Origin: a virus
Length of the DNA: 38,269 nucleotides
Virus record (IMG/VR): IMGVR_UViG_3300028874_000026
Coordinates: 1-38,269 of that record
Reading direction: 5' to 3' (one strand)
The notes under the pieces were generated by a model, which had not been told where the DNA came from, did not search any database, and saw only the letters and a program-made list of their open reading frames with translations. Every line of letters starts with the position of its first letter. The stretch's first letter is position 1. Of the stretch, positions 2,226-4,029 are shown piece by piece. The position numbers and the translations under genes were made by a program.

Positions 2226-2302
2226 AATAGTCGTCATTGCGACAATCCAAAAATAAGTTTAAAGTCCCCATTGCCGTGTCTGGCAAATCTGGTGGGGGTT
2301 CT

Positions 2303-2779
2303 ATGCTGGCGCTACAACAGAAGGTGGTTTCCGCACGTCGGGCCAGGGAAATCTATTTCACCGAGAGAATGGAGCCAGCCGATTGGCAGGCCCGCAACTA
2401 TCCAGAAATTGGCCGCGTTCGCAAGGTTAACTCACGGCTATTGGAATCACTTTCCCCTGATCAGCTAACGGCCTGGGACCAGATCGCAGAAGCTTGGATG
2501 CATATCCACATTGGTCGGTCAGTCGGGATTGCGCAGTATGAGGATTACGTCCCGAGCGGCCAGGGCGGCGAGGGCATTACCGACCGCGTGATCCGGCTTT
2601 ACCGAAACTATGAAGCATGGCGCAATATGTGCGAGGCCATGGACTTCGACGCGGCGGCGGCTATCGACATCCTTTGCAGAGGCTATAGCCTGCGCTCTGT
2701 CGCCAAACAGAGAATGCGGGACACTCACTGGCCGATGGAAAATCTCAAGAATTGCTTAGACCTGTATTTTTGTCGTTGA
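2303..2779 (+). CDS. Possible phage late-gene regulator (inference)
   Basis: 158 residues from ATG 2303, preceded by GGTGGGGG. An upstream TTG at 2237 would add 22 residues but has no clear ribosome binding site. The protein is helical and ends in a segment (ILCRGYSLRSVAKQRMRD then HWPMENLKNCLDLYF) resembling the C-terminal helix-turn-helix of phage late-transcription or antitermination regulators. Position fits, as it is the last gene before the tRNA region and the terminase operon. No family can be named with confidence. The perfect TTGACA of the next promoter overlaps its stop codon. Confidence 0.55.
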   Translation: MLALQQKVVSARRAREIYFTERMEPADWQARNYPEIGRVRKVNSRLLESLSPDQLTAWDQIAEAWMHIHIGRSVGIAQYEDYVPSGQGGEGITDRVIRLYRNYEAWRNMCEAMDFDAAAAIDILCRGYSLRSVAKQRMRDTHWPMENLKNCLDLYFCR

Positions 2780-2804
2780 CAGCCAACCGCATTTATGGTT
2801 TAAA
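2776..2804 (+). promoter_or_regulatory. Sigma70-like promoter for the large structured non-coding block
   Basis: A perfect -35 TTGACA (2776-2781), a 17-nt spacer and TTTAAA (2799-2804). Transcription would begin near 2811, just ahead of the first stem of the structured RNA. AACC/GGTT (2785-2788/2797-2800) forms a small inverted repeat within the promoter. Confidence 0.6.
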
Positions 2805-2810
2805 TTAACT

Positions 2811-3175
2811 AGGATGTGAGGTTTATGACTGCGCCGGGAGATTCCCCCTTCCAGGCGCTCGGGGCGCAGAGGTTTCATCCCTCCGCTTAATCGGCTAACG
2901 AGGCCAGCCCTGACACATTCCCAGAATAGCCAGAATGTGGGTTTTTCTCTCGCTGGCAGAGCCCGCGCCTTTCTCAGAAGTGAGAAGCGCGGGCCAACGA
3001 TACCTAACCCGTCTGTGGCAAATGACCATGGGCGATAGCTCGGCAGCCCGAGGGATGTTGAGCGACTAATTAGATGCCCTTACAGGTGGGAACAGCTGCC
3101 CCACGCACCAGCCGGCAACGGCGGGTAATTAAGAGCCGCAAGGCTCCCAAGAGATCGCGCTTTGCAACGCGGTAA
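2811..3175 (+). ncRNA. Candidate large structured RNA leading into a tRNA-like element
   Basis: About 365 nt without a convincing gene but with a dense run of helices. They are 2829-2835/2863-2869 (CTGCGCC/GGCGCAG), 2903-2908/2952-2957 enclosing 2914-2920/2933-2939, and 2961-2968/2987-2994 continuing as 2971-2976/2981-2986 with a GAAG loop. Then come 3030-3034/3075-3079 enclosing 3039-3043/3048-3052, and 3086-3090/3100-3104 with a palindromic CAGCTG in its loop. Last are 3111-3114/3119-3122 and 3133-3137/3142-3146, both capped by GCAA, and 3154-3159/3168-3173. The block has its own promoter and runs into a tRNA-like fold. Context recalls the GOLLD and ROOL RNAs, which are known beside phage tRNA genes. 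Homology was not tested. Confidence 0.6.
2825..2890 (+). CDS. Possible 21-residue leader peptide
   Basis: MTAPGDSPFQALGAQRFHPS (plus Ala) from ATG 2825 with GAGG five bases upstream, 14 nt after the predicted transcript start. It overlaps the first helix of the structured block (2829-2869), so either the ORF or the helix may be incidental. No known family. Confidence 0.25.
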   Translation: MTAPGDSPFQALGAQRFHPSA

Positions 3176-3181
3176 GCTTCG

Positions 3182-3281
3182 AACAATGTAGTTCAGTTGG
3201 TAGAACTGCGCTCCCTCATGGCTAAGGGCCAAAACGCCGGGAACAAAGCGTAAGCCGATGGTTCGAGTCCATCCGTTGTTC
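3182..3281 (+). tRNA. tRNA-shaped element with a 34-nt anticodon loop (insertion or intron-like)
   Basis: All parts but one are canonical. The acceptor is AACAATG/CGTTGTT (3182-3188/3274-3280), the D-arm GTTC-AGTTGGTA-GAAC (3191-3206), the variable region 5 nt, and the T-arm GATGG-TTCGAGT-CCATC (3257-3273). The anticodon stem GCGCT/AGCGT (3208-3212/3247-3251) encloses 34 nt instead of 7. That loop holds a CCCT/AGGG hairpin (3213-3216/3225-3228). G3181 can pair with C3281, the G-1:C73 pair typical of tRNA-His. No CCA is encoded. Without a known processing route, the amino-acid identity cannot be assigned. Confidence 0.65.
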
Positions 3282-3483
3282 GTTTAGGGTGCTCCGCCTA
3301 TCGCCCGGTAGGACTTGCAAGGAAACGCCGGGATGAAGCGGTTTGCATGGGCTCATGCTCATGCTTGGGTGTCAGCCTAACAAGCGGCCTCTCAATTCAG
3401 ACAACCCATGGGCCGCGCCCATCGGGTAAGGGGCGGCACCCGGAAGGGACCGTAATCGGAATTTAAGCCGCCCCTCCAAATTC
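3282..3483 (+). ncRNA. Further structured non-coding sequence, hairpin-rich
   Basis: No gene. Helices seen are CCCGG/CCGGG (3304-3308/3328-3332), GCATG-GGCT-CATGC (3345-3358), and GCTTG/CAAGC (3363-3367/3381-3385). ACCC...GGGT (3404-3407/3424-3427) encloses ATGGGC/GCCCAT (3408-3413/3417-3422). An 8-bp stem GGGGCGGC/GCCGCCCC (3430-3437/3467-3474) encloses CCC-GGAA-GGG (a GNRA loop) and CCG-TAAT-CGG. It may be the 3' continuation of the RNA starting near 2811. Confidence 0.5.
3405..3483 (+). repeat. tRNA leader repeat, copy 1
   Basis: The order CCATGG - hairpin - CCATCGGG(T)AA - GCGGC stem - CCTCCAAATTC is followed directly by a tRNA-like start. The same order occurs at 3888-3951 before tRNA-Thr. 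Shared exact words include CCATCGGG and CTCCAAATTC. The arrangement suggests duplication of a tRNA plus its leader. Confidence 0.6.
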
Positions 3484-3507
3484 GCCGCCCTAGCTCAACG
3501 GCAGAGC
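3484..3507 (+). tRNA. tRNA 5'-half-like fragment
   Basis: GCCGCCC, TA, then a canonical D-arm GCTC-AACGGCA-GAGC (3493-3507) with the spacing of a tRNA 5' half, right after the leader repeat. No matching anticodon arm, T-arm or GGGCGGC acceptor strand follows. The leftward gene at 3525-3779 begins to overlap here. The only perfect partner for the acceptor strand is upstream at 3431-3437. It may be a tRNA truncated when the leftward gene was acquired. Confidence 0.35.
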
Positions 3508-3524
3508 AATAGTGGCAATCTGGC

Positions 3525-3779
3525 TCATGATGCGGATTGGTTCAGGGTGAAGGCCAACTCATGAGCTTCGGCCAAAGCCAGATGGCTGGCTGACTTCGCC
3601 GTTTTTCCGTCGTGGCATCCTTCCCATGTCCTAACTACGCGCTTCACCCCCTTGGCCCTATCGGAAATCATGGATACATGAGTAACTCCGTCGGCTACCT
3701 CAAGTACCGCGATCCGAACATATTTTCCTTTGCACGACGATGGCATTTTGGCGGCGGATTTCTGTACGATGTAGGCCAT
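3525..3779 (-). CDS. Leftward hypothetical protein inside the tRNA region
   Basis: 84 residues, MAYIVQKSAAKM... with GKYVRIAVLEV, DGVTHVSMISDRAKG and VVRTWEGCHDGKT. It reads as a genuine beta-rich small protein of a type seen in phages and proteobacteria. Function unknown. The ATG at 3779 has CCGGAG about 9 nt upstream on the minus strand. Its own strong promoter (3825-3852) and a palindromic operator lie upstream. The mRNA leader carries a GAGGG/CCCTC hairpin (3799-3813). It is the only leftward gene in the left 9 kb and lies antisense to the structured RNA block. Confidence 0.7.
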   Translation of the reverse strand: MAYIVQKSAAKMPSSCKGKYVRIAVLEVADGVTHVSMISDRAKGVKRVVRTWEGCHDGKTAKSASHLALAEAHELAFTLNQSAS

Positions 3780-3824
3780 AATCTTTACTCCGGTTTGTGA
3801 GGGCTATTCCCTCTTGATGTACCC

Positions 3825-3852
3825 ATTATAGGCGTTTTTCCGATGGCGTCAA
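3825..3852 (-). promoter_or_regulatory. Strong sigma70-like promoter, leftward
   Basis: On the minus strand TTGACG (plus 3847-3852), 16-nt spacer, and a perfect TATAAT (plus 3825-3830). Transcription would start near 3818 and read into the gene at 3525-3779. It is the best promoter match seen in the window. Confidence 0.75.
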
Positions 3853-3876
3853 CGGAAAATTAGCGTAACGCCTATA
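3827..3876. promoter_or_regulatory. Palindromic operator/hairpin spanning the leftward promoter
   Basis: TATAGGCGTT (3827-3836) is perfectly repeated inverted as AACGCCTATA (3867-3876), with an inner TTTCCG/CGGAAA (3837-3842/3853-3858). Within it ATTAGCGTAACGCCTAT (3859-3875) matches 13 of 17 bases of the perfect palindrome at 36884-36900 in the other leftward promoter. The half-site ATAGGCG at 3828-3834 overlaps the -10. This is likely a repressor-binding region. Confidence 0.6.
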
Positions 3877-3887
3877 AAATAATTTAG

Positions 3888-3951
3888 CCCATGGCCTCCG
3901 CGATGCGCGCCATCGGGCAATGCGGCCTAAATGGCCGCACCTCCAAATTCA
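3888..3951 (+). repeat. tRNA leader repeat, copy 2
   Basis: CCCATGGCC, then CCATCGGGCAA, a GCGGCC-TAAAT-GGCCGC hairpin (3922-3938) and CCTCCAAATTC immediately before tRNA-Thr. It parallels copy 1 at 3405-3483 in order and in the exact words CCATCGGG and CTCCAAATTC, though the enclosed hairpins differ in length. Confidence 0.6.
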
Positions 3952-4029
3952 GCCGGGTTAGCTCAGTCGGCTTAGAGCGCCGGTTTTGTAAACCGGATGT
4001 CGCGGGTTCAATCCCTGCACCCGGCACCA
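3952..4029 (+). tRNA. tRNA-Thr (anticodon TGT), CCA encoded
   Basis: A complete cloverleaf: acceptor GCCGGGT/ACCCGGC, D-arm GCTC...GAGC, anticodon stem CCGGT/ACCGG around TTTGTAA (anticodon TGT), 5-nt variable region ATGTC, T-arm GCGGG-TTCAATC-CCTGC, discriminator A and encoded CCA (4027-4029). Being complete, it is cargo rather than a 3'-end attachment-site remnant. It could compensate for codon use during infection, as phage tRNAs often do. Confidence 0.96.

Follow-up and report, generated by a model that had tools for sequence, protein, structure and literature searches.

A noncoding block upstream of the terminase gene

The window (the whole stretch of DNA analyzed, 38,269 bases) comes from a myovirus-like phage, with tail sheath, portal, and terminase genes, and this phage of peat type carries a copy of the skipping-rope RNA. 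Between ORF-A and the tRNA-Thr and terminase genes lie about 700 bases (2780–3490) that hold no reading frame of at least 60 amino acids. An earlier note on this DNA had proposed a candidate noncoding RNA here and had named a conserved protein frame across the block as grounds for giving it up. The features of the region are as follows.

2237..2779, + strand: ORF-A, 180 amino acids; no match in Pfam or PHROG
2776..2804, + strand: promoter-like site, TTGACA - 17 nt - TTTAAA, read from the sequence
2811..3070, + strand: 5′ domain, about seven helices predicted by folding, including the 2961–2994 hairpin
3076..3179, + strand: skipping-rope RNA, alphaproteobacterial variant, from covariance models and pattern scans
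3079–3083/3172–3176, + strand: skipping-rope P1
3086–3090/3100–3104, + strand: skipping-rope P2
3107–3109/3124–3126, + strand: skipping-rope P3, with a GCAA hairpin at 3111–3122
3133–3146, + strand: extra GCAA hairpin of the skipping-rope RNA
3156–3159/3168–3171, + strand: skipping-rope P4
3180..3283, + strand: tRNA-like element (RF00005), 9-bp acceptor stem, 34-nt anticodon loop, CCA not encoded
3286..3404, + strand: second conserved RNA motif (module 3), stem 3304–3308/3328–3332 around the invariant loop UAGGACUUGCAAGGAAACG; not in Rfam
3398..3482, + strand: hairpin unit ending CCTCCAAATTC, from sequence, fold z −3.9
about 3887–3946, + strand: related hairpin unit preceding tRNA-Thr, from sequence, fold z −3.5
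3952..4029, + strand: tRNA-Thr (TGT), from RF00005 and ARAGORN

ORF-A belongs to a family (window, L290, L291, and L297) of phage proteins whose genes immediately precede the RNA block and the terminase gene, a position that by analogy resembles that of a late-gene regulator. Its homologues in other phages are about 28% identical, and in two of these phages, including L290 (28%, E = 5e-12), module 3 again lies 3′ of the gene; no recognizable RNA of this kind was found downstream of the homologue in L297. The "perfect TTGACA promoter" that the earlier note had placed before the block is perfect only in its −35 element (2776–2781), because the −10 element, TTTAAA, matches at four of six positions and the site received no call in a consensus promoter scan. 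Elsewhere in the window, positions 285–884 encode a pentapeptide-repeat protein (PF00805) whose coding DNA is a 15-nt repeat, 1490–1569 is another tRNA-like sequence (RF00005, 33.4 bits), and 1613–1684 is a tRNA 3′ half with CCA and no recognizable 5′ half.

The block is densely structured, as had been claimed: a 402 nt stretch folds with z = −2.66 (1 of 100 shuffled sequences was as good), and three consecutive 120-nt segments from 2821 had z-scores between −2.6 and −3.1, where the contig as a whole averages about −0.5. By this 120-nt measure the clearest fold signal of the block is at 2821–3060. Both GCAA loops (3115–3118 and 3138–3141) are real and form part of the skipping-rope RNA, and the cloverleaf at 3182–3281 does adjoin it (RF00005, 48.3 bits; gathering score, 29). 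The end that had been set at 3281 proved too early; conserved structure continues to about 3404 and beyond. GOLLD and ROOL are likewise structured RNAs beside phage tRNA genes, but the window gave no covariance-model match to them or to other large-RNA families, even at E ≤ 5. What stands of the earlier proposal is a structured noncoding RNA beside a tRNA-shaped fold; a row or mosaic of modules, one of them from a known orphan sRNA family (RF02924), is a better description of the block than one new giant RNA.

Neither 2811–3070 nor 3286–3404 matched any Rfam family. A scan of phage records returned tRNA matches only, and relatives of the terminase at about 65% identity or less had no match to the RNA block. 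The hairpin at 2961–2994 in the 5′ domain has a fold z-score of −4.8; a search for diverged homologues of 2811–3070 found near-identical copies only, and the pattern CAACGATACCTAACCC from this domain gave only chance hits in unrelated sequence. Two other candidates were set aside: a group I intron, suggested by GACUA-like strings, had no Rfam match, and inspection by eye gave no support for a kissing interaction of loops L2 and L4.

The skipping-rope RNA

When the window was scanned against RF02924 with cmscan, the match scored 20.7 bits (E = 0.04), under the Rfam gathering score of 36.7 bits that serves as the detection threshold. A degenerate pattern derived from the window was run over viral contigs, and, near-identical copies aside, all 13 of the contigs that it found carry RF02924 above gathering. 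Genome contigs yielded more relatives, including two (L117 and L109) that share the subtype of the window, one that goes undetected at the Rfam gathering score and has an additional hairpin between GGUAAUUAA and CCAAGAGAUC. The pattern GGTAATTAA..CCAAGAGAT returned mostly chance hits, yet also three true relatives (L135, L138, and L145), and ACGCACC..GGTAATTAA returned no new relative. On the phage contig L138, the skipping-rope RNA is closely preceded, on its own strand, by a frame (444–776) that matches ribosomal protein S21 (PF01165).

A covariance model (R1) built from five relatives, with the window left out, scored window positions 3076–3179 at 79.3 bits (E = 8e-17, a value flattered because the relatives were picked partly by letters shared with the window); Rfam-recognized members of RF02924 scored 41–92 bits with the same model. 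P1 and P4 lie outside the search patterns, and all 12 of their pairs change on both sides. In an alignment of 26 distinct sequences, which was fitted to the covariance model and so leans toward structure, 95% of cells are paired, two-sided changes occur in 16 of 21 pairs, and none of 500 shuffles had as good a covariation score. The compensatory changes by which the earlier note proposed to judge its stems are present among homologues of 3076–3179 and weakly so at 3286–3404.

In the window copy, P2, P4, and five pairs of P1 are fully paired, and the conserved unpaired letters AG, GGAA, CACC, and GAGAU are all present. This copy resembles RF02924 in the order of P1, P2, P3, and P4, in the placement of AGG, GGAA, CACC, and GAGAU, and in its association with phage; it differs in that a tRNA-like element, not a terminator, follows it, in its extra hairpin, and in its sub-gathering score. 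We regard it as close to certain that 3076–3179 (module 1) belongs to the skipping-rope class.

Downstream modules and apparent exchange between phages

One strand of skipping-rope P1 ends at 3176–3179, and position 3180 already belongs to the tRNA-like element, as the start of its extended acceptor stem. This element passes the RF00005 gathering score, but its anticodon loop has 34 nt where a tRNA has 7, so it should not decode; a loop of this length also makes it expected that ARAGORN did not find the element (3182–3281), and for both reasons we call it tRNA-like. We infer that it is a 3′ processing signal. On this view, transcription in the phage would start at the promoter-like site at 2776 and yield a longer RNA that includes the skipping-rope sequence; an enzyme such as RNase P would then cut where the tRNA-like element begins and so define the 3′ end of the skipping-rope RNA, substituting for a terminator.

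Module 3 is common to unrelated phages. A DNA search of 297 genomes identified a 71% relative in L285, and phages L290 and L291 have this sequence as well. Its 19-nt loop UAGGACUUGCAAGGAAACG is invariant on changing stems (CCCGG/CCGGG in the window, CCCUGA/UCAGGG in L285, and UUCCG/CGGAA in L292). In L292 the hairpin (2616–2649) is part of a phage permuted tmRNA (RF04321, 99.5 bits), within its intervening sequence; the loop and its covarying stem are the sole part shared with the window, which has no tmRNA match. A covariance model of module 3 (R2) recovers the copies in L285, L290, L291, and L292, and formal covariation is weak because the alignment has only four rows. Downstream of module 3 in L290 is an int-alpA RNA (RF02996; 4483–4546).

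Comparison with two other phage contigs (L084 and L094) showed at most two substitutions over 2840–3343, a range that starts where the L084 contig starts (L094 begins at 2876), and the terminase genes of these contigs are not detectably related to that of the window. The RNA cassette thus seems to have been swapped between phages. Nearly all the differences between the window and L003, which are otherwise almost identical over 8.4 kb, fall at 3344–3456, where, judging by sequence, the hairpins are the product of local recombination; L003 mostly matches another phage lineage there. Both L084 and L094 carry a different 215-nt insert at window position 3395 and are missing about 440 bases (3490–3940), which in the window are flanked by the two related hairpin units, each ending CCTCCAAATTC directly before a tRNA-like start.

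Such exchange bears on two other readings of the block. One takes 2811–3404 or a longer stretch as a single large multidomain phage RNA of a new kind, its skipping-rope, tRNA-like, and hairpin domains acting jointly, for instance as a scaffold or oligomer in the manner of GOLLD or ROOL. In its favor, the modules follow one another directly, have a single promoter-like site in common, and travel between phages as one nearly identical block, and a palindrome (CUUGCAAG) in the module 3 loop could allow loop-to-loop pairing. However, skipping-rope RNA elsewhere works alone, at a length of about 100 nt, L285, L290, and L292 have module 3 but no skipping-rope RNA, and GOLLD and ROOL gave no match, and we consider a single large RNA unlikely. 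It is far less probable still that the region is a decaying tRNA cluster whose hairpins are functionless remnants kept by recent spread. Degraded tRNA pieces do lie nearby (1490–1569, 1613–1684, and from 3490 on), the element at 3182 should be unable to decode, and the 5′ domain has no diverged relative, but against mere remnants stand the covariation in 3076–3179, the module 3 loop, whose 19 nt stay constant while its stems change, and a cassette that is unchanged between phages with unrelated terminases.

A convergent PBECR-like gene and the phage copies

In most chromosomal loci of Alphaproteobacteria, a convergent gene of one protein family lies downstream of the skipping-rope RNA, and the chromosomal copies that we read have promoter-like and terminator-like sequences on their flanks. 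An HMM of the protein matched 25 frames in about 300 fetched loci (about 2.4 Mb), all beside a skipping-rope RNA. The gene is present at 23 of 40 RNA loci and is convergent in every case; its stop codon lies 11–57 nt past the RNA in 21 of the 23 distinct loci, and in L282 and L283 the protein frame enters the RNA by about 50 nt. Searches with just the RNA model turned up ten new genomes, eight of which have the RNA and nuclease pair. In the reciprocal search of 260 Alphaproteobacteria with the protein profile, all four positive genomes (one of which was the center of the sample) have the RNA adjoining. Some chromosomal copies are unpaired (L106, L109, L117, L272, and L286), so the RNA may also act without the nuclease, and skipping-rope RNAs from other phyla (L085, L087, and L095) lack this protein family.

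The partner protein matched Pfam PBECR3 (E = 2.7e-5, 7.7e-5, and 1.2e-3) and, also below the cut-off, PBECR2; the best PBECR profile score was 24.5 bits, short of the 30 bits set for membership. It has an invariant His and a Ser/Thr in V-[KR]-[ST]-x-Y, and these conserved residues fit the BECR RNase active site, in which a helix contributes His and a strand Ser/Thr (PMC5512222). It shares this pattern with the PBECR domains (PF18810 and PF18812; PMC5512222) and matches them weakly, whereas it scores below their cut-offs and is encoded by a stand-alone chromosomal gene beside the RNA, a gene absent from the window. An AlphaFold model of the protein was weak (pLDDT 61.6), and its first five PDB neighbors in Foldseek, none of them significant, were all toxin structures or toxin-antitoxin complexes, including BrnT, RelBE2, and HigBA. 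PADLOC and NCBIfam hold no relevant model for the protein, and our literature search found no paper on the role of skipping-rope RNA and none linking it to PBECR proteins.

The phage copies, that of the window included, are mostly without the nuclease. With the profile that had found the protein in the 260 genomes, no PBECR-like protein was found anywhere in 14 virus records that carry the RNA (0/14), these records being incomplete fragments. A prophage-type group (L089, L097, and L098) has the full RNA and nuclease pair, and the RNA of the window is nearest (80%–84% in the model alignment) to three chromosomal copies that have the nuclease.

Because the RNA adjoins a gene for a predicted RNA-cutting toxin in many bacteria, we suggest that it is the antidote. 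In Alphaproteobacteria, the free-standing RNA and the small PBECR-like RNase gene facing it across a short gap would form a two-gene unit, in which the folded RNA would bind and silence the nuclease as ToxI RNA does ToxN. Phage PhiTE provides a precedent for a decoy, its pseudo-ToxI being an antitoxin mimic directed against ToxIN (PMC3475682). A decoy of this sort should look like what the phage has, an antitoxin resembling that of the host but unaccompanied by the toxin. Phage RNA without the nuclease could likewise keep the host nuclease silent during infection. The chances seem to us about even that RNA and protein are a toxin-antitoxin pair and that the phage carries the RNA alone as an anti-defense decoy.

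As with ToxIN (type III) and the PhiTE pseudo-ToxI (PMC3475682), the RNA stands with a small predicted RNase in relatives and alone in phage. In ToxIN, however, the antitoxin is a tandem-repeat RNA that is co-transcribed with the toxin gene and precedes it, whereas the skipping-rope relatives have a single RNA and a convergent gene and so lack the type III layout; the partner also belongs to another toxin family, and its activity is predicted. The RNA could instead serve the PBECR-like nuclease as cofactor, guide, or substrate, or regulate other RNAs in trans, with phage copies serving phage gene control: the linkage is silent on which partner controls which, and both chromosomes and phages of other phyla have copies that stand unpaired. 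We think this improbable, since a convergent RNA and small RNase gene together with an orphan phage RNA is the pattern expected for an antitoxin and its mimic. With slightly less than even odds, skipping-rope RNA is the antitoxin of an unrecognized convergent, nonrepetitive RNA/PBECR-nuclease system, and several phage lineages carry this RNA for anti-defense, here in an exchangeable cassette that also holds a new RNA motif and a tRNA-like signal for 3′ processing.

The motif at 3286–3404 stands apart from the skipping-rope RNA and has no Rfam entry. Skipping-rope RNA has so far been an orphan family, and its linkage to a predicted RNase makes its function testable; if the antitoxin and decoy reading is true, the arms race between phages and bacteria would gain an RNA-antitoxin system together with a phage RNA that acts against it.
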